Assembly (NCBI GenBank): GCA_950295325.1
Contig: OX485805.1
Span: forward strand, 2,974,501-3,038,500
DNA from: Polytrichum commune
Lineage: Eukaryota; Streptophyta; Polytrichopsida; Polytrichales; Polytrichaceae
Reading direction: 5' to 3'
Length of the DNA stretch: 64,000 nt
In this document: positions 10,613 to 60,400 of the stretch, piece after piece
Position numbering within the stretch: the first letter of the stretch is position 1
Layout: each line of letters starts with the position of its first letter
Made by a program: the position numbers and the translations under genes
The notes under the pieces: model-generated
The model's database searches: none
The model's input: the letters and a program-made list of their open reading frames with translations, nothing else
Told to the model about the DNA's origin: nothing

Positions 10613-13600
10613 ATGGCTAGACGCACACAAGATGCTCGGACTTTGTACTTGGTGTTTGGAATGATGAGCAGTTTGTGGAGTCTCAACACTATGCCAATCA
10701 ACGGGGCTACAAATCCAGCAGGTACTACTCAGTGGTTGCACTAAGTTCCTAAGTTTGTATATTTATGTAGCGAGGTTGTTGGAAAAGTTTACGTCAATCA
10801 GGACTATAGTCATTGGCTTCCACCCAATGTAATCTCACCTCGCGCTGCGCAGTGCTGTCCTTTAATTGTCATCTTTGATTGAATCAGAATTTTGATATTG
10901 CAGTTTTTCCCTTCCTAGTCATATTTGACTGACAAACAAGTATATTTTTTCTTATGAGTGGCAGGGTTCGTCTACATCGATTGTGGTGCATCAGCTGCAT
11001 ATATTGACCCAGTGACCGGCCTACAGTGGGTCCCAGATGATGGCTTTATTACAACTGGTGTGAACGTTGGCAATGTAACTGTCGACTCGTCTCATTCGGA
11101 ATTTCCTGAGCTTACAACCCTTCGATACTTTAATGAATCTTATCCCAAAGATTGTTACATCCTACCGGTGACACCCAAGGCCAAGTATTTGGTGAGAGCA
11201 ATTTTTTATTATGGACACTATGACGGTGCTTCAACGCCTCCTACTTTCCAGATGGCAATTGATGCAACAATTGTGGTCAATATAACCACTTCAACAAGTA
11301 CCTTTGTGTATGAAGAGTTTGCAATAACATCTCAAAGTAACGTGACCTATCTTTGCCTTCTAAGAGATTGGTCTAATACGGTGCCTTTCATCTCTGCTAT
11401 AGCTTTACGACCTTTTATTTCATATGATTATAGTATGGATCATATCCTTGCTTCACCTCGATATCTATTTCTTATTGCGAGGTTGAATCTTGGCGGAGTT
11501 GGTCCCATGATAAGGTATGATTCCTCAACTTTGTTGATTTGGCCATCAAAAGCTACATGTTTTATGTAGTTCGGTGCATTAGAGAGGTGACCGTGACTTT
11601 GATAAAAAGGTGTCAATGACAAGAACACACATGTCAAACTTGAAACTTAATCAATACATTTTATAATTAGTAACTTAATCATCATGTTTATTGATCTCTT
11701 TTGATCTATTCATAATTTGGAGGTTAATAATTTCTCCAAACAGGCGAATCTATGTGAAAAAGACTTGATAAATTTTGGCTTGATATTTTCTTTGAAATCT
11801 TTAGAATTGAGTTATTTAGAAACCAATCAATGGGAAATTTTAATGTGAGTATAATTGTGTAGTTTTAAAAGTTTTTAATGGTTTTCACATCGTTTGCAAA
11901 AAAAAGTTAAATTTGGTTACAAGTTTTTGTAGTGCTCTTAATAGGATGTTGTTGATGCAGATACCCTGATGACAAGTTTGATAGATATTGGTACCCTGAG
12001 AATGTGGATAATCCATATGTTTCTACGACAACAACATTAACCAATTTATCCACATCTATTGTGGTGAATATGTCGGGAACGAATGAATCTATCCCATCCG
12101 TTGTTATGCAAACTTGTTTGACCGTGACCAGCCTTGGAAACATGACAATCTTAAGCAATCTCATTCACCAAAATGTTGGAGCATATGTGAGATTCTTTTG
12201 GGCTGAATTGAATCCAAAAGTAAATGCATCCTCAAGACAATTTTGGATACAAGTACCTAGTGTCGTGGATACATTTGAAAATCCCTTTGTATATGGGGGT
12301 CTATATAGCTATGATAGTTGGAGGTTTCCGGATGTACCTTTAACTACATCAACAACATCAACTCCTGAATTTGTATTATATCCAACCCCACAATCTATAT
12401 TTGGGCCATCATTGAATGCGTTGGAAATATATGGAGAAACAAATATTATATCTTTGACATCCACTGAACTTGATGGTAAATATTCTACTCCACCCAAACT
12501 AATTTGATGTAGGTGTTAGAATATTGGTGTTGGTGTTAAAATTACGTATTAAGTGGTTGGAATCGTCTCAAATAACCATTGCTAATATTGCAGCTTTGGC
12601 TATTGAGGCTGTCAAATCAAGTATGAACCTAGGAAATTGGAGTGGTGATCCATGTCTTCCATCTCCTCATCCATGGCTCACTTGTGACAACATGATTTCA
12701 CCTCCGTACATTCTTGCAATGTAAGTATTTCTTCTATCTTCCAATAAATCCTAGATATAATCAAAATGCTTAGTTTATATTCCAACATTGATTTGATCAA
12801 TATAATTTGATTTGATGAATAAATGGCTTACCTTACAAGAAACTTTTATGTTTTTGGTGTATGATTTGTTTATTCATGTGTATACGTATGTGTGCATGTG
12901 ACTAAATGATCATTAGTTTATTCATGTGTATACTTGGACTTGATTCTAGTTGTAAACCAATGATATCAAGTGCCCCTCAACTGTTTTATGTTTCCATAAT
13001 ACTAATAGTTGTAAAATATCATGTAGGAACATTGTGCTACATGATATTGGGAAGAGAACCTTAATCTTGAAATTTCAGCATAGAAAGGTGGTCAATATAT
13101 ATGTTGTGATTGTCATTGCAGAAATCTATCCGGATATCAATTAAATTCAACCATTTCCCTAAGCTTTGCCCAACTTGAGAACCTCACAAGCCTGTAAGTA
13201 ATTTGACCATGTATTTATATTATGTTGTTATTTTTGTTCGTGTAATTGAAGTGATGAACTATGAGGTTTTTTTTTGTTATAACTTGTCATGAAAATTGGG
13301 ATTGAATTGGTTTTTTTTGTTTTGATGAATAAAAAAGACATAATCTAATTATAGGTTGCTAAGGATACATTTGGGATACATTTTTTTTTATGAAATTTAA
13401 AGATTATGTACAAGTTACTCATAATAAATGGATGAAATATTAAACTAGCATTTAGGTCATTCTTAACATTTTGGATGAAAACCAACAAAATGAGTGGGTG
13501 ATGTCATCCTCCAAATCCCCTCAATTTTGTGATTTCTTCCCACAACTTTGTAGTTGTATGTCATATGTGGATTCTATTGGTTTTTATTTTTTACCATGCA

Positions 13601-20355: not shown

Positions 20356-20697
20356 TTTCAAACAGGTTGCGAACTGCACTGAGCTCAACCCTCACACAAC
20401 TAGCTCACATGACAAATTCCAGTGGCTCTGATGATAAGCCTGTCACACCTTTTCTATATAAATTACCTCTTCTTTTCTTCTGATTAGTAAATCCAGATGC
20501 TTTGCTATGTCAATGTGAAAGTGCTGAGTCGTGACCCCCGCACAGGCCTTTGAATTCCTACATAGCCTGTGAACTCCACCGAGCTTGACCTCAACATCAC
20601 AAGATTACAGGAACCATTCCAGTGGCAAAACATTCCATCTAAATCACCTTTTATTTTCTTCTGATTTAGCAAGTGAAGATGCCCGTGATATGTCAAA
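20356..20697 (+). repeat. Imperfect tandem duplication before the SET gene
   Basis: Two units of about 160-180 bp (20356-20520 and 20540-20700) share the order GAACTGCACTGAGCTCAACC or GAACTCCACCGAGCTTGACC, then CATTCCAGTGGC or close, then TTTTCTTCTGATT(T)AG, then GATATGTCAA or close. The second unit runs into the start of the coding region (ATG 20716). The duplication may have copied a splice acceptor-like pyrimidine tract with AG. Confidence 0.6.
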
Positions 20698-20715
20698 TTG
20701 TGGACTATTCCCTTC

Positions 20716-22197
20716 ATGTGTATCCGCCATGTGTTTTTGCAGAATCTGGCAAGAGGGAGTGTGAAATTGAGGAGGACGCATCTCCAGATTGTATTACCAC
20801 CATCGAATTGCAGCCGAGTCTACTGCAGCTTACAAACCGAGACACAGGCACAGCAGGAGCTATGGAGCTGGGCAAAGGTGCAAGGTGTGCAAAGTGAAGC
20901 AGTCAGACCAGCAGAGGGATCCGAGGGTCTAGGGTTAGTAGCACAACGCCAAGTGAATGCAGGAGAAGAAGTTGTCACCGTTCCAGAGGCACTCTGGATC
21001 AATGTGGCAACTGCTCAAGCATCACCAAGGATCGGTCGGTTTTGCGAGAACCTCAAGCCATGGGTAGGCATCTCCTTGTTTCTCATTCACGAATTTTACG
21101 ATCCAAATTCAAAGTGGCGTCCTTACCTCGACAGTCTACCTAAGACACTGGATTCACCACTGCTGTGGTCCGAGGAGGAGTTGGAGGAGCTTCAAGGTAC
21201 CCAACTCCTCGGATCTGTGGCAGGTTATCTGGAATTTCTTGATAGTGAGTTCACTGGGTTAACTGAACAGTTGTTTGAACCGAATTCAGAAATTTTTGAT
21301 CCTGAGGTTTACACTTATGAGGCTTTCAGATGGGCTTTTGGTATCCTCCGGTCACGAACATTTGCACCTCTTACTGGAGATGACCTTGCATTGGTTCCGG
21401 TAGCTGATCTGGTGAACCATGGAGTAGGACTCAGTGATGACATCCCAAGCTGGATCAAGAAAAAACCAGGCCAAATTTGGAACTTAGGCAAAGAGAATTC
21501 ACATGTCCTTGCTCTTCGAGCTTCCGCAACATTTCAATCCGGGGAGCAGGTGTTGATGCAATATGGCAGAACCAAAAGCAATGCAGAGCTGGCACTGGAC
21601 TATGGATTTGTTGAGCGAGAAACTGAGTCACAACATGTTGGAGGCAGTGACCGAGACTCATTAGCTCTAACCCTCGAGGTTTCCCCTGAAGATCGGTTTG
21701 TGGATGACAAAGTTGACATTCTGGAGTTGAATGGATTACAATGCAGCATGCAATTTGATTTACCCCGGGGTCAAGGCCCACCGGATGTTATGATCACATT
21801 CCTTCGTCTTTCCACTCTCTCAGGCTCAGATGCGTTCCTTTTGGAAGCATTGTTTCGGAACGAAGCTTGGAGCCATCTCTCATTGCCTGTGAGCAGAGAA
21901 AATGAAGAAGCTGTGTGTACATCCATGCTTGATGGATTAAGGGCTGCATTGGCCGAGTATCATACCACAATTGAAGAGGATTTGGATATTTTAGGCAGAG
22001 AAGATTTGAGCAAACGGAAGGAGATGGCTGTCGTGGTGAGGTTAGGGGAGAAGAGAGTGTTGGAAGAACTGCAGACATGGTTTGAAGCTCGCTTGGCTGG
22101 GTTGGATTCCATTGAATATTATGGCGACCGAAGGTTACGAGATCTTGGCCTCCTCGATGACAAAGGATTTATGACTCCCTGGGTTTTCAATGAGTAA
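20716..22197 (+). CDS. Rubisco LSMT-like SET-domain protein lysine methyltransferase
   Basis: A 493-aa single-exon frame. The SET region spans about 70-300 with EGLGLVAQRQV (70-80), RWAFGILRSRTF (205-216), VPVADLVNH (227-235) and the SET-end block QYGRTKSNAELALDYGF (282-298). The C-terminal half (about 310-475) matches the Rubisco LSMT substrate-binding domain, with the YHTTIEEDLD segment. Plant LSMT-type enzymes use S-adenosylmethionine to methylate lysines of chloroplast proteins such as the Rubisco large subunit or fructose-bisphosphate aldolase. Residues 1-38 are rich in Arg, Ser and hydrophobics with few acids, compatible with a chloroplast transit peptide. The first ATG in frame is 20716; the frame stays open to a TTG at 20698. 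An upstream exon supplying the true N-terminus cannot be excluded. Pea LSMT is of similar length. Confidence 0.88.
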   Translation: MCIRHVFLQNLARGSVKLRRTHLQIVLPPSNCSRVYCSLQTETQAQQELWSWAKVQGVQSEAVRPAEGSEGLGLVAQRQVNAGEEVVTVPEALWINVATAQASPRIGRFCENLKPWVGISLFLIHEFYDPNSKWRPYLDSLPKTLDSPLLWSEEELEELQGTQLLGSVAGYLEFLDSEFTGLTEQLFEPNSEIFDPEVYTYEAFRWAFGILRSRTFAPLTGDDLALVPVADLVNHGVGLSDDIPSWIKKKPGQIWNLGKENSHVLALRASATFQSGEQVLMQYGRTKSNAELALDYGFVERETESQHVGGSDRDSLALTLEVSPEDRFVDDKVDILELNGLQCSMQFDLPRGQGPPDVMITFLRLSTLSGSDAFLLEALFRNEAWSHLSLPVSRENEEAVCTSMLDGLRAALAEYHTTIEEDLDILGREDLSKRKEMAVVVRLGEKRVLEELQTWFEARLAGLDSIEYYGDRRLRDLGLLDDKGFMTPWVFNE

Positions 22198-37340: not shown

Positions 37341-37590
37341 ATGCCACCTCATGAGAATTCTTGCCCACCTGTCTTCTGACCTACATGATAGCATGGCTTG
37401 CCAACTAGGTATTGTAGTTGCCTACTTATTTGATAGTTTAGGTGTCGGCGTGGTGCTCACCACCTTAGTCCACCCAACTATGGTGGGGGGTCCTTGGACC
37501 TTGTTGTATGGGTACCTCAAAGCCCTTTGGGGGGATTCCATGTCCGGTATCTTCAAGGCACTAGTGGCTAGCTAGGAACTTGTATAGTGT

Positions 37591-37760
37591 GTTACTATAG
37601 TGTCCATCCTCGAAAGGGGAGAGTAGTATTTGTCCCAGTGTCCCCTTGTCCAGTGGGCATCGGGTCATTGGCATTACGAACGGACACTTTATTCACGCCA
37701 ACCCCTTGCTTGAAAGGGGTTGGAGTTTCTATCTATCTATCTTTCTATCTATCTATGGCA
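37591..37760 (+). repeat. Repeat B, copy 1: probable LINE 3' end with TCTA tail
   Basis: 170 bp, starting GTTACTATAGTGTCCATCCT and ending in a TCTA tetranucleotide tail followed by ATGGCA. A second copy (42573-42719) lies downstream of the LINE coding region. If B is the 3' terminus of this LINE family, copy 1 is the end of another, almost completely truncated element, and the relic downstream was inserted at its microsatellite tail. Confidence 0.6.
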
Positions 37761-37788
37761 AAAAGGTAACCCATTATAACTAACAAAC

Positions 37789-39789
37789 CATAGACCTATT
37801 GCACTAGCTAACACCATATATAAATTCTACACGAGTACATTAACTTCTATCCTATCAGCGTATGGAGAAAAATACCAAATATTACACGATAGTCAAGAAG
37901 GATTTAGAGCAGAGAGAAGCACTTCTAGACAAATCCAATTATTAATCGCAGCGCTTGAAGACGCAAGACTCACGAACCAAGATATATATATCATTTACAT
38001 TGACTTCAAAAATGCCTTCGGCTCCATTGATCACGCCAGACTTTTAGCCATAATGAAAGATCTGGGATATCCTACTGACTCCATAAATCTCATAAGAAAC
38101 ATATATTCATAATCCTCAATAATATTCACTGGTGAACACTTCGGTAAAACCTTACCAATCCCCATTCAAAGAGGTACAATACAAGGTGATACCCTTAGCC
38201 CATATCTATTTATCATATTCCTAGAACCCCTCCTCAGATGGCTACAACAAGGGAATAATGGATACACTTTTAGTACATCCAAAATAAAAATCTCATCAGC
38301 AGCATATGCAGATGACCTAGCAGCAATCGCCAATAAACTAGAGACACTACAAACACAACTCAACAAACTATACAAATTTTGCGAATGGGCAGGAATGGAT
38401 CTTGGAATACCCAAGTGCGCAATAACTGGATGTCCAAACAAATCCAAACTTCACCCCACAACCTTCAAAGTCTTAATCCAATCTACCAATATCAACTACA
38501 GAAACCAACCTATACCAGTCTTAAACCAACATGAACCATACACGTATCTAGGAATAAATCTTGCACCATCACTCAAATGGAAAACACAAATAAATACCAC
38601 TACAGCTAAAGTAATAAAACAGTGTCAAGCCCTTGTAACATGTCCAGCTACTATGAAACAAAAAATAAACATGGCAGATACAGTCATACGTGCTGGAATA
38701 GCATACAGCTTCTACGCAGTGCCATACTCCATACCAGCTATCAAAAAACTCGATAAAAAAATCATAGCACTTCACAAAACGATATGCGGAATACCCAAAT
38801 GTACATCTAACATCGCTACACAACTCCCACACAATCTATTCGGAATCGAAGCATTCTCACTACAAAATGCCTATTTAAGATGCATTGGAAAACAACTACA
38901 AAAAGCCCTCAATGATAAAGGTAGAATTGGGAAAATATATGTTGGTCTACTTCAATTCATACTCGCCAAATATGGGGGCTCTAAGGAAATCACCCGCATT
39001 AAATACCACCACTGTGTTAGATCACCCATCACTAGAACATTATTCTTGCTCAAACATAAAGCCGGAGTCCACCTAAAAAGTACAATAAACAATTTCCTAC
39101 TAACCTCATCCCCACTTGAAACTGCATGGATGCAGGAAGCACAAATGTTTCATGGCCTAAATTCCAACACCTCATTTAAATTACTACACAAACTACTTGT
39201 ACATAATATAATCATACTAGACCAAATTACCATGCCTAATGGTATCACTCTAATGAACCCGGACGAATTCAAAATCTACCACTCCACTCCTTCTAAACTT
39301 ATCAAAAACGCACTTAACATAGCTAATCAATTATTTTGTCACCCCCCTTGTAATCAATGCCCCCTACCATGCCAACAACACCATCCACCAAAATCCCTAA
39401 AAAATAAATATATAATAAGACACCACAATATCCTACCACACCCACCAACCGCCCCCGTACACCCCCCTAACCTCCCCATCCCCCCTCTACCCCCTCCTCC
39501 CAACAACATGCTTAAAGACCCCCGACAATTCCCCATACATAAAATAATCGATCATAAACAAAAACAATCCAATGACCATAACGGAATAAAAAGAACAGTC
39601 ACGTCGTACTTATGTCAATGGACTACAACAAATAACAACACATATAACAAATGGCGAACTCAAAGGGACCTATACCCCTACTGTGAAACCAACACATGTA
39701 ATCACAACACAGACCTACTTATCCATTACTACAAAGAAAGACAACACAAACATTTTTCAAACATAATTAATGCCTACTTCTCCACATAA
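37789..39789 (+). pseudogene. Reverse transcriptase and thumb/linker of the LINE relic
   Basis: One frame carries the RT palm, from SQEGFRAERST through IYIDFKNAFGSIDHARLL, IQRGTIQGDTLSP and AAYADDLAAI, interrupted by TAA at 38110. The open stretch from 38395 continues through a YLGINLAPSLKWKTQI thumb motif to a Pro-rich segment near 39430-39510. It stops at TAA 39787 but the same frame continues beyond. Order and spacing match LINE polymerases. Confidence 0.85.
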
Positions 39790-42271
39790 CAACATAGAGA
39801 CACAAGATACATCACACCAAACACAATAATTCCACTAGCACATATCTCTATTAATGAATGCAACCCAGAAAACGACATCGAATCAAACTCTGATACCATC
39901 CAAACACAATTCGATGTCGCTCACATATATGAAGACAATGGCCGACACCTCACTACCATCCCGAAAGCTAGACTAACATGATTATGGAAACAATACCAAT
40001 TGGCAAAAAACAACACACACGGTCTAGAACCATCTACCCAATCGTTCGAAACTGAAATTGTTTGGTTATACCAAAGGTACAAATACCGTATCCCAAAAAA
40101 TGACCCACTCAAACGAGCCCAATATACAATACCTACCCAAATATTAGATCTCCTGATTACAACATTCAATATTAACCACTCATATTTTTCATCCCCAGTT
40201 ACATGTCCCACACAATTCACCCAATTCTACTCACCATTCTCGCGAGACATAATATTTGGATCCCTAGATAAAGCGTTTGACCATAAATGACAAGGAATCG
40301 GTTACGCACACCCTCATAATACAACAGACCTACAACAAGCTATTCACTGGGCGCGCATAGCGGCCCAAAATGATCCATATACAATCACTATACTTATATC
40401 TCCGGATACTAATTGGTACCAAAACTCCAACCCACACACAGGCTCATTCCCAGACACACACGTCATTGCCCATTTCGCCGCTGATACGATCACGTATGAG
40501 GAACCCACAATACCCCCCGAGCTCAATATCACAATAAAAGAACCATCTACCATGCAAATATTCTGTATCCATCACCAAAACAATAACATAGGCACCTACG
40601 AACAAATGAAATTAATAAACGACATAGCAAATAACCTCCAAATACTACAAAGTCACACACAAACTGCACCACCCACCCCTCCAAACATCACCGTTAACCC
40701 TAGTAAAAAATGGGCCACATCAAACTACCCAAATACAATCCCACACAATAATACCCCTACCCCACAACTCCCAAACTACCAAACTAACTTACCGCTAAAA
40801 TTCCACCCCCAATTTAGCTACTACACAGACGGATCCTTTATAAAACCCAAAGAAATTGCCCCTGGGGTATGGAGAAGAGAAAGAGCTGGATACGGTATCT
40901 ATAGCCCCAAAGGCTTAAATATCGCCAAAAGACTCCATGGGCATCAAAACATACTACGTGCAGAAATGATGGCTATACACAAAACACTAAGAATCATTAA
41001 TACAAAATTCCCTAATGAACCCGCATTCATATTCACAGAACGTATTATACCTATTCAACACACAAATTAAACACCCCACTCTCCATAATAGTCACCCCGA
41101 CCAAACCACACTCAACTCCATGGTAAAAATCCTCCAAGACCGTACACAGCCAATCACACTATACAAAGTCAGAGCACACGTCAACATTGACGGTAATGAA
41201 AAAGCGGATAAACTAGCAAAAGACGGGTTAGAATTAGAACACATAATTGCCATCCACCCATACGAACATGCCCACGCCATCCCGTACTATTACCAAAAGG
41301 ACGTTTGGGCCTCGATGGCAGACGTCCCAGACAAAGGCCCAATAAGATTCTTAGAAAAACAAATTAAAAAATATGATAGGGAAACCAATATAGCAATCAT
41401 GGCCACACAAACCCCCAACACGTGTAAATGGACAGAAAATATAGACATTGACAAAGAACTGTCCAACGAATTCTGGACAAATCCCTTAATCACAGACAAA
41501 CAAAAATCCTGCCTTATTAAATTCCGCACAGGAACATACATGGGTAATGCTAGAAAACAAATGTTCTTCGGTCACCAGAGGTACCCCTCTATCACATGCC
41601 CTATATGCAATTCAAACGATCCAGACACTTGGCTACATGTTCTACTGAAATGCAACCAACAACATATACACTCACTATGAATTAAAAGACATAACAAAGC
41701 AGTCGGAGAAATTAGGAAGCTTCTAATCTCGTCCGAAAAATCCTGATGTTTTACTCTCATGAATGCCGGTACCTTCAATAATAACCCCCAAGAAAATACA
41801 GTCCCCAAATGGCTACTCCCCTGCACATGTAACACACAAAGATGTCATTGCAACGCAAGATTTCGACCTGATATACTCTGCGTTAAAGGATTACCATATC
41901 AAAATGACCCTCCCAGTGACATTGACCCTAACCTCACCATACAATTTATTGAATTCACATATTGTAACGACAGATTTTCCCCAGAAACAATAGAAGCAAA
42001 AAACAACAAATACAAACCTTTGATTGAGAGTATCGCTTCCAGAGGATGGAAAATCGAACCACTTATTGTCATCACAGCTGGGGCCCGAGCTACGGCCCAC
42101 ATCCCATCTATGAAAATACTAGAAGAAAATCTCAAAATACCCCTGGTTACCATCAAAAATACCTTTAAAAACATTAATACCATTGCAATACAATATGCCA
42201 TGTCCATCCTCCTCCATAAGAGGAGAATTGAGAACCACCAACCGCCCCCCCAAAACTTAGACCCTCCATAA
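39790..42271 (+). pseudogene. RNase H, zinc finger and REL endonuclease of the LINE relic
   Basis: RNase H lies in the first frame (Asp at 40828-40830, Glu near 40963). The frame then shifts near 41040 so that KVRAHVNIDGNEKADKLAKD, the C-terminal RNase H block, is read in the next frame. The finger CPICNSNDPDTWLHVLLKC comes after it, and RHNKAV after a TGA. From 41759, an open frame of 170 codons holds the REL-type nuclease: CxC-x4-CxC, RPD, FIEFT and KYKPL, then VITAGARA. The fourth conserved RNase H Asp position is lost at the frameshift. Confidence 0.8.
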
Positions 42272-42319
42272 AACCCAAAAAACTTATATAATATTTAGTA
42301 TATATTTACAGCTCAGAAT

Positions 42320-42481
42320 GAGGGATTGGTGCCGGTTGGTTGGTACAAATTTCCTGCCTTTTACTCACTTGCAGCACCAAGTCACGCGTTACATTTTAGA
42401 CGATCATACGGACTCGACTGAAATCGAACCCGGAACGTCTTAACTCAAACATCCTCCCACAACCAACCGAGGAATCATGAC
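42320..42481 (-). repeat. Possible tRNA-derived (SINE-like) segment
   Basis: On the minus strand, 42481-42415 starts CCTCGGTTGGTTGTGGGAGG and contains GGGTTCGATTTC, a good match to a pol III B box (GGTTCGANTCC), about 40 nt after a weaker A-box-like block. It lies in the 3' region of the LINE, opposite in sense. Whether it is a real SINE or part of the LINE 3' UTR is open. Confidence 0.4.
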
Positions 42482-42536
42482 TTGGCGTTCACTCTCATAA
42501 CAAAAACACTAATTATACCTAAAAGGCATGCACCGC

Positions 42537-42558
42537 CGTGGGCCATGATCGGCCCACG
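42537..42558 (+). other. Perfect 8-bp stem hairpin before repeat B
   Basis: CGTGGGCC and GGCCCACG form a perfect inverted pair with a short loop just upstream of repeat B copy 2, within the LINE 3' region. It could be a 3' UTR structure used for recognition by the polymerase, as known for other LINEs; this is inference. Confidence 0.45.
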
Positions 42559-42572
42559 TTATTTGTTTCTCG

Positions 42573-42719
42573 GTTACTATAGTGTCCATCCTCGAAAGAG
42601 GAGAGTAGTTTTGTCCCAGCTTCCCCATGTCCTGTGGGCATCGGGTTGTTGGCATTACGAACGGACACTCTATTCACGCCGGCCCCTAAAGGGACCGGAG
42701 TTTCTATCTATCTATGGCA
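42573..42719 (+). repeat. Repeat B, copy 2, at the LINE 3' end
   Basis: 147 bp, homologous to 37591-37760, with a shorter TCTA tail (TTTCTATCTATCTATGGCA). It lies 280 bp after the last LINE codon, and the TCTA tail probably marks the element's 3' terminus. Confidence 0.6.
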
Positions 42720-59839: not shown

Positions 59840-60400
59840 TCAAACCTCCTCGACGCCAACTTGTCCCAAACAAATTGGGATGATGAGCTCCTGTACACCA
59901 TCCCAGCCTCCAAGCAGCCAGGTAGGAGAGACGAGCACCGAGAAGAGCAGATAACGAGGGCCGCGAGGGAAGAGCACTGAGAAGAGCAGAGGACGAGGGC
60001 CGCGAGGGAAGAGCACCGAGGAGCAGGCGGCCATCAGAGCAGCAAGGCATCAGCAGCGAAGGAGGAGCCGGGTATCGGAGGAGAAGGAGAATGGCAGCGA
60101 AGGGAGCGGGTATCATGGACAGCTCGAGCGAGGAAAGGGGGACAGATGGTAGCCCAGGGTCGAAGACCGGTGAATGGCCGAGGACCGGCTTACCCGGTTA
60201 TATAGGGAGCATGGGAGCGCACCAAGGCGGCCCGGGAACGCGGGGAGCACACGGGAACGCACCGAGACGGCTCGGGAACGAAGGGAGCGCACCGGGAACG
60301 CACCGAGAGCCGGGAGGAGTGAACGACACCGGGAACGTCGTCATCAAGCCGGGAACGGACAAGCAACTAAGTAGGGTAGGATAGTTAGTTGCTAGTGAAC
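59840..60400. repeat. GC-rich region with 39-bp tandem repeat
   Basis: A unit of 39 bp beginning AGCACCGAGAAGAGCAG occurs twice (59934, 59973) and starts a third time at 60012. Further on, CGGGAACGCACCGAG-like words recur irregularly to 60350. This is by far the most GC-rich stretch of the window. Open frames exist on both strands (for instance 60091-60384 on +), but they are of low complexity and I do not call a gene. Confidence 0.6.

Follow-up and report, generated by a model that had tools for sequence, protein, structure and literature searches.

The stretch of DNA analyzed in this study (the window) comprises 64,000 nucleotides of contig OX485805.1 from the moss Polytrichum commune (GCA_950295325.1, positions 2,974,501 to 3,038,500 of the forward strand). 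The PsaB protein of the plastid contig C8 of this genome had its highest scores against 7ksq, 6l35, and 8htu (1700.6 bits; next 1663.2, then 1627.4), which are photosystem I entries of Physcomitrium, and this places the host near that moss. On its + strand, at 37760–42715, lies the 5'-truncated remnant of a long interspersed nuclear element (LINE) encoding a reverse transcriptase (RT), RNase H, a zinc finger, and a restriction-like endonuclease (RLE). Very probably, this remnant is a dead copy of a young moss LINE family whose intact members have a first open reading frame (ORF1), an ORF2 of 2625 amino acids (aa), dual endonucleases, a PCIF1/CAPAM-like fold, and a structured 3' end.

The original prediction, made from the sequence alone, had described a single reading frame from RT to nuclease at 37761–42300. 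Its landmarks, namely the RT with YADD, RNase H, the CPIC-H-C finger, RHNKAV, RPD, and FIEFT, are all present on the + strand in frames between 37780 and 42271, and its start stands (about 37760), but the element runs on to 42715. Nor is the frame single, as ORF2 of the window copy is disrupted by six stops (ending at 38112, 39789, 39981, 40290, 41680, and 41746) and one frameshift within 40991–41070. The copy was 97.5% identical over 4526 columns and 98.6% identical over 440 columns to the full-length locus L001, and its 5' start corresponds to about residue 1120 of ORF2, inside the RT. Because this truncation removed it, no apurinic/apyrimidinic (AP) endonuclease (APE) occurs upstream in the window, where the prediction had advised looking for one; the domain was found in the intact copies. 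The window copy stands between two 16-bp direct repeats (CTATCTATCTATGGCA), which in part cannot be told apart from repeat tails, and the insertion point lies in or beside the tail of a short interspersed nuclear element (SINE) at 37443–37755 (Table 1).

The C-terminal 174 aa matched 150 of the 150 places scored in the same 408-Mb genome (out of 4917 first-look candidates; window copy included) at E 1.6e-103 or better, which rules out a chance resemblance or a single odd copy. Three of these places (L001, L002, and L003) contained uninterrupted ORF2 frames of 2625 aa. They were mutually 99.3–99.6% identical over long aligned stretches, and the alignment of L002 with L003 extended over 11,869 columns, from a tandem-repeat 5' region through the tail. 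ORF1 measured 747 aa (stop to stop) in all three and overlapped ORF2 by 22 nt; two ORF1 pieces, searched at E up to 1, gave no Pfam match except a weak RING-finger (E 0.062). By eye, L003 is bounded by TCCATTCTTAA on both sides. The family has apparently been active recently. Additionally, the 5' region of L001 upstream of joined position 2796 is unlike that of L002 and L003, similarity beginning at 2796; this suggests that elements about 99% identical in other respects have swapped 5' UTR modules.

The domains of the intact ORF2 are arranged in the order 2A-like NPGP motif, AP endonuclease, RT, PCIF1/CAPAM-like fold, RNase H, zinc finger, and R2-like RLE. The original prediction had not covered the PCIF1-like domain, the 2A motif, ORF1, a SINE partner, or the structure of the 3' RNA. 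Sixteen further loci matched ORF2, 14 of them at about 36–65% identity by piece and two (L026 and L027) at 89%. Two lineages were distinguished in the RT tree, A (L001 and L025–L028; 97/96) and B (L007, L008, and L010–L014; 83/85), to which L029–L032 (A) and L009 (B) were assigned by identity. Ratios of nonsynonymous to synonymous substitution (dN/dS), taken as simple Nei-Gojobori estimates from 4–6 pairs per region with dS often above 1, were 0.05–0.22 in all six regions (APE, RT, middle region, PCIF1-like domain, RNase H, and RLE). By these estimates, all six regions tested are under purifying selection, and both endonucleases and the PCIF1-like domain have therefore been kept.

Table 1. Features of the LINE copy and the adjoining SINE in the window
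Feature	Position	Strand	Basis or remark
SINE copy, 5' head missing relative to fetched copies	37443..37755	+	last ~160 nt resemble LINE 3' end
Left target-site duplication CTATCTATCTATGGCA	37745..37760	+	partly ambiguous with repeat tails
5'-truncated, broken LINE copy	37760..42715	+	alignment to L001
Reverse transcriptase, stop at 38110-38112	37786..38562	+	RVT_1 in two pieces, E 4.4e-12 and 8.5e-14
PCIF1/CAPAM-like methyltransferase-fold domain with stops	39619..40641	+	PF12237 E 2.6e-10 at 40009-40284; 94% to L001
RNase H, frameshifted	40813..41230	+	PF00075 in two parts, E 0.0023 and 0.00016; the split of the domain keeps both below the curated cut-off
CPIC-H-C finger, RHNKAV linker, and RLE; two stops	41531..42268	+	RPD near 41864, FIEFT near 41951
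Structured 3' UTR: closed stem with inner hairpins, terminal hairpin, then (TATC)n tail	42580..42703	+	family alignment (tail of the window copy outside it)
Right target-site duplication CTATCTATCTATGGCA, overlapping the repeat tail	42704..42719	+	direct repeat

Catalytic domains of the family

The AP endonuclease occupies residues 490–765 of ORF2 and was aligned over nine members. WN, QETK, the Y of MYMP/IYMP/LYMP, GDFNRDI, IDG, and NSDH were invariant in all nine, and so were the presumed catalytic positions (N, E, Y, D/N, D, and SDH). PF14529 (Exo_endo_phos_2) and PF03372 (Exo_endo_phos) each matched 9/9 members at E ≤ 1 (best 4.2e-10). Seven PDB sequences matched the APE profile at E ≤ 1 (best E 0.00035), each of them an exonuclease III or an AP endonuclease.

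RVT_1 was identified at residues 1122–1387 of L001 ORF2 (E 2.6e-29). The RT profile matched R2 best among PDB sequences (7.7e-37), followed by Bombyx R2 (6.8e-23) and 8c8j (3.4e-22), which we take to be human L1 ORF2p. The RT tree had 26 rows. Those of the moss family, 12 in number (L001 and 11 of the 16 further loci), formed one clade (100/100), and 10 other LINE RTs of the same genome clustered with L1, split from the family and R2 by a branch of 100/98. Loci with stops in the RT (L009 and L029–L032) and those near-identical to L001 (L002 and L003) were left out. The tree was midpoint-rooted, had long branches, and was anchored by R2, L1, and the other LINEs of the genome, with no RTE or Dualen rows; therefore, it excludes L1 and gives no further placement. 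By this phylogeny the RT of the family lies outside L1, in agreement with the original prediction.

The intact copy L001 has one RNase H domain (PF00075, E 4.6e-13). The residues E2188, D2213, H2262, and D2272 were kept in 18/18 members, and D2143 in 17/18. The RNase H of the family keeps its His, whereas the archaea-like RNase H of plant L1 has Arg at the corresponding position (PMC4640811).

In the RLE region, two clusters with the appearance of metal-binding sites (C-C-H-C and C-C-C-C) were invariant in 13 members, as was the E of EFTY; the P and D of R/K-PD were each nearly invariant. A search of PDB sequences with the single RLE sequence of the window returned no match, and the best match of the RLE profile, Bombyx R2, was weak (E 0.58). 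The RLE model (pLDDT 78.9, pTM 0.79) gave seven Foldseek matches at E ≤ 0.001, all R2 proteins, and in VIA-align it matched R2 at Z 12.9–14.7 (rmsd 3.0–3.3 over 186–191 residues), the next row reaching 7.8. With the sequence searches null or weak, it was the fold comparison that settled the R2-type identity. The domain after the finger, which had been predicted to be a nuclease of this kind, is thus an RLE whose modeled structure has the R2 RLE fold.

The 3' end, the SINE partner, and insertion sites

The SINE of the window was found at 39 other listed places at 96–98% identity over about 300 nt (40 scored of 1740 candidates), and over 160 columns its segment at 37591–37750 agreed with the L001 tail at 86.25% identity. 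In most of the fetched copies the head is longer and contains ggttctattcc, which resembles the B box of pol III promoters. ARAGORN reported no gene in four SINE copies and Rfam no match at the gathering score in three; these searches thus offer no support for a tRNA origin of the SINE head.

In both lineages, the last ~105–130 nt of the RNA before the repeat tail fold into a closed stem that contains inner hairpins, together with a terminal hairpin, although L029, one of the nine rows of lineage A, took a different fold when folded alone. Compensatory changes were counted in 10 of 37 pairs for lineage A with the SINE (9 sequences) and in 12 of 35 for lineage B (8 sequences), numbers reached by 0/500 shuffles in each case, and sliding the partners lowered the pairing from 92–96% to 29–47%. 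The 3' end and its RNA structure are common to the LINE and the SINE. A covarying structure held in common suggests, therefore, that the RT would recognize the structured RNA end and that the SINE would be mobilized through it. The repeat tails themselves differ by lineage, being (TATC)n, (TTC)n, or C/T-rich (e.g., TTTTC), with similar RNA architecture before them (L028, L029, and L007–L014).

The expected sequence-specific insertion, of the kind seen in site-specific RLE elements (R2, CRE, NeSL, and Utopia type), was not borne out. The surroundings of 20 LINE 3' junctions (taken among the best-scoring others of the 150 listed) and of 20 SINE copies (from 40 listed, one of which is the copy in the window) were mutually unrelated in sequence. 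Position 1 after the tail was T in 20/20 LINE and 19/20 SINE flanks, where it is indistinguishable from the tail, and beyond this position no base exceeded 13/20. Site-specific or microsatellite-targeted insertion, which the (TATC)n ends of the copies had made plausible, is rejected for the 20 LINE and 20 SINE copies fetched: the repeat is the element's own tail, with unrelated sequence past it.

Target-site duplications of 11–14 bp were found in 12 of the 15 SINE copies with an intact head (L034, L036, L040, L045, and L046, in which the head is not intact, had been dropped beforehand), as compared with duplications of at least 8 bp in 1/210 mismatched pairs. None was found in the remaining three of the 15 (L035, L047, and L049). 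By eye, among the dropped copies, L040 has a duplication of about 8 bp, and that of L046 is about 70 bp instead of about 12.

Relation to Dualen, RandI, and R2 elements

Among land-plant LINEs, a 2022 review names, in its accessible text, L1 and RTE only, and it describes plant LINEs as coding for an endonuclease and an RT, often with RNase H, an endowment similar to that of the moss family (PMC9033089). A paper on transposable elements of Physcomitrium mentions two expressed LINE families, the type of which is not stated in its accessible text (PMC7466625). The moss family differs from plant L1 in that the ten other LINE RTs of the genome make up a separate clade with L1. Moreover, we know of no RLE or PCIF1-like domain in the L1 and RTE LINEs of plants.

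Dualen encodes both an APE and an RLE, and RNase H has been reported from Dualen/RandI (PMC4640811). RandI is tabulated under green algae only, together with SINE partners and with the 3' repeats (ATT)n and (CTATTT)n, in the accessible part of PMC3747384. An architecture of this type, as had been foreseen for the window, is found in the moss family, in which APE, RLE, and RNase H are all present. Further likenesses are the repeat tails other than poly(A) and the SINE partner with a common 3' end; the differences are the land-plant host, the PCIF1-like domain, and the 2A motif, which the accessible parts of these two papers do not report for Dualen/RandI. The family would thus work like a Dualen element, with dual endonucleases and RNase H, a likeness drawn from architecture. 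No such element was among the matches listed in searches of the literature on Dualen, RandI, or moss LINEs, the supplements of which are not searchable. Profile scans of viral contigs (RT and PCIF1 profiles) and genome contigs (RT profile) found no relative.

We give about an even chance to closer kinship, in which the moss family would truly belong to the Dualen/RandI clade of algae, whether by vertical descent within green plants or by transfer. All Dualen elements would then have a PCIF1-like domain and a 2A motif as parts so far undescribed. The same set of APE, RLE, and RNase H (PMC4640811) argues for this kinship, as do the pairs of RandI and SINE and the non-poly(A) 3' repeats of green algae (PMC3747384), which are the same in kind here. 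A point against it is the cysteine protease domain with which the Dualen of Chlamydomonas has reportedly been described: no protease family was detected by Pfam in ORF2 (E up to 10) or in two ORF1 pieces (E up to 1), although divergent domains may escape such searches.

It is rather unlikely that the family is an R2-group (RLE) LINE that gained its APE and RNase H independently of Dualen, as a convergent dual-endonuclease element. The family resembles R2 of Bombyx, zebra finch, and turtle in the RLE fold, the preceding finger, and the RHNK linker; its RT scores nearest to R2 among PDB sequences, and R2 falls on its side of the L1 split in the RT tree. However, that tree was midpoint-rooted with few anchors and long branches, and a score nearest to R2 would be expected of Dualen too, because the PDB, to our knowledge, contains no Dualen. 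R2 elements are not known to have an APE or RNase H and insert site-specifically in 28S rDNA, whereas the moss family has both enzymes and scattered insertion sites.

The PCIF1/CAPAM-like domain and a proposed mechanism

The PCIF1/CAPAM-like domain is positioned between the RT and RNase H. PF12237 (PCIF1) matched residues 1871–1966 of L001 (E 3e-10; 44.0 bits against a cut-off of 31.1) and was recovered in 13/13 aligned members at E ≤ 1 (best 1.2e-13). In a whole-genome search with PF12237, all 150 places scored of 697 candidates were over the cut-off, some of them in frames of 2600–2900 aa. The only PDB sequences matched by the domain profile at E ≤ 10 were two of PCIF1 (E 0.0076 and 0.25). 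The top six fold matches of the low-confidence model were PCIF1/CAPAM entries as well (Z 8.8–9.5; next 5.7), the match covering the methyltransferase core of PCIF1 (model 90–338 to chain 417–668). As a separate observation, no match among the 150 stands out as a cellular PCIF1 (best 55.6 bits), and introns or unscored candidates could hide one.

The family domain is thus similar to PCIF1/CAPAM, the cap-specific adenosine N6-methyltransferase of messenger RNA, in profile and in the fold of the methyltransferase core, and it differs in sitting within a retrotransposon polyprotein, in the lack of a WW domain match in ORF2, and in its catalytic motif. The site of the catalytic NPPF reads [HYF]-P-[HPTK]-[NDT] in 13/13 aligned members, and NPPF was absent from all 19 readable copies of 20 further ones (L088 was left out). 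According to the accessible text of PMC10544176, NPPF mutation inactivates PCIF1. Drosophila PCIF1 has an F-to-H change and m6Am is absent there; m6Am is absent in bees too, where PMC9479742, as far as its accessible text goes, judges an F-to-Y change an unlikely cause.

The domain has lost its catalytic motif and most likely serves as a module for binding RNA or the cap, not as a methyltransferase. An active methyltransferase with altered chemistry or an altered motif, modifying LINE RNA, is improbable: the low-confidence fold match does span the methyltransferase core and purifying selection acts on the region (dN/dS 0.10–0.19), but the replacement of NPPF in every aligned and readable copy, the loss of PCIF1 activity on NPPF mutation (PMC10544176), and the F-to-H change that accompanies absent m6Am in Drosophila (PMC9479742) all speak against it. 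Along with the binding module, we tentatively propose that the LINE lineage took up a cap-methyltransferase fold and inactivated it, and that selection has since maintained the domain for reading the capped 5' ends of RNA. The element might then recognize both ends of its transcript, the 3' UTR by the RT and the cap by the PCIF1-like domain, which would favor full-length copies of this 12-kb element. A PCIF1-like domain in a retrotransposon was not among the matches listed in the literature searches; these did not extend to supplements, subscription papers, or Repbase, and priority is uncertain.

The 2A-like NPGP motif of ORF2 occurs in 17/17 pieces, seven of which, including L001–L003, fit the published 2A/StopGo core, (D/G/C/N)(V/I)ExNPGP (PMC12846837, accessible text). 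In the proposed mechanism, ribosome skipping at 2A would free a leader peptide, and the RT would bind the 3' stem-loops of the element's own RNA. One of the two endonucleases would nick the target, possibly beside a T, and the 3' OH at the nick would prime copying of the repeat tail. The second strand would be cut about 12 bp away by the other endonuclease, or by the same one, and RNase H would clear away the template, with the PCIF1-like domain acting as an RNA- or cap-binding module.

Several observations weigh against this reading of the family and its parts. The L001 APE domain alone is under both curated Pfam cut-offs, and the active-site lysine of the RLE was not assigned. The AlphaFold model of the PCIF1-like domain is poor (mean pLDDT 52.6, pTM 0.42), and for this reason it was used only jointly with the sequence profile. 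The other ten of the 17 pieces give no demonstrated match to the functional 2A core, with H, K, or Q for Glu in nine and a cut at the piece edge in one. For the 3' RNA, a measure of further pair types was no better than shuffles (204 and 346 of 500), and shuffling leaves shared ancestry in the covariation counts. Inspection by eye gave target-site duplications of the LINE itself in just two copies, L003 and the window copy.

A numerous, young dual-endonuclease family in a moss would widen the known range beyond the L1 and RTE elements of the 2022 review (PMC9033089) and the RandI of algae (PMC3747384), within the accessible text of both. APE elements have been proposed as the successors of RLE elements, with Dualen as a dual stage (PMC4640811), and the family offers a system for asking what each endonuclease does. 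Additionally, a PCIF1-like domain in a retrotransposon would link cap biology to retrotransposition.

The sense strand of L001 ORF2 has a strong strand asymmetry in composition (A 39.6%, C 28.3%, T 20.9%, and G 11.2%). In the window, the GC skew is about -0.4 at 38001–42000 and ranges from -0.12 to +0.13 elsewhere. Other features of the window are a malectin-like domain protein at 10958–12507, an apparently intronless Rubisco LSMT-like gene at 20689–22197, and an open frame rich in Arg/Glu with internal near-repeats at 59926–60384.

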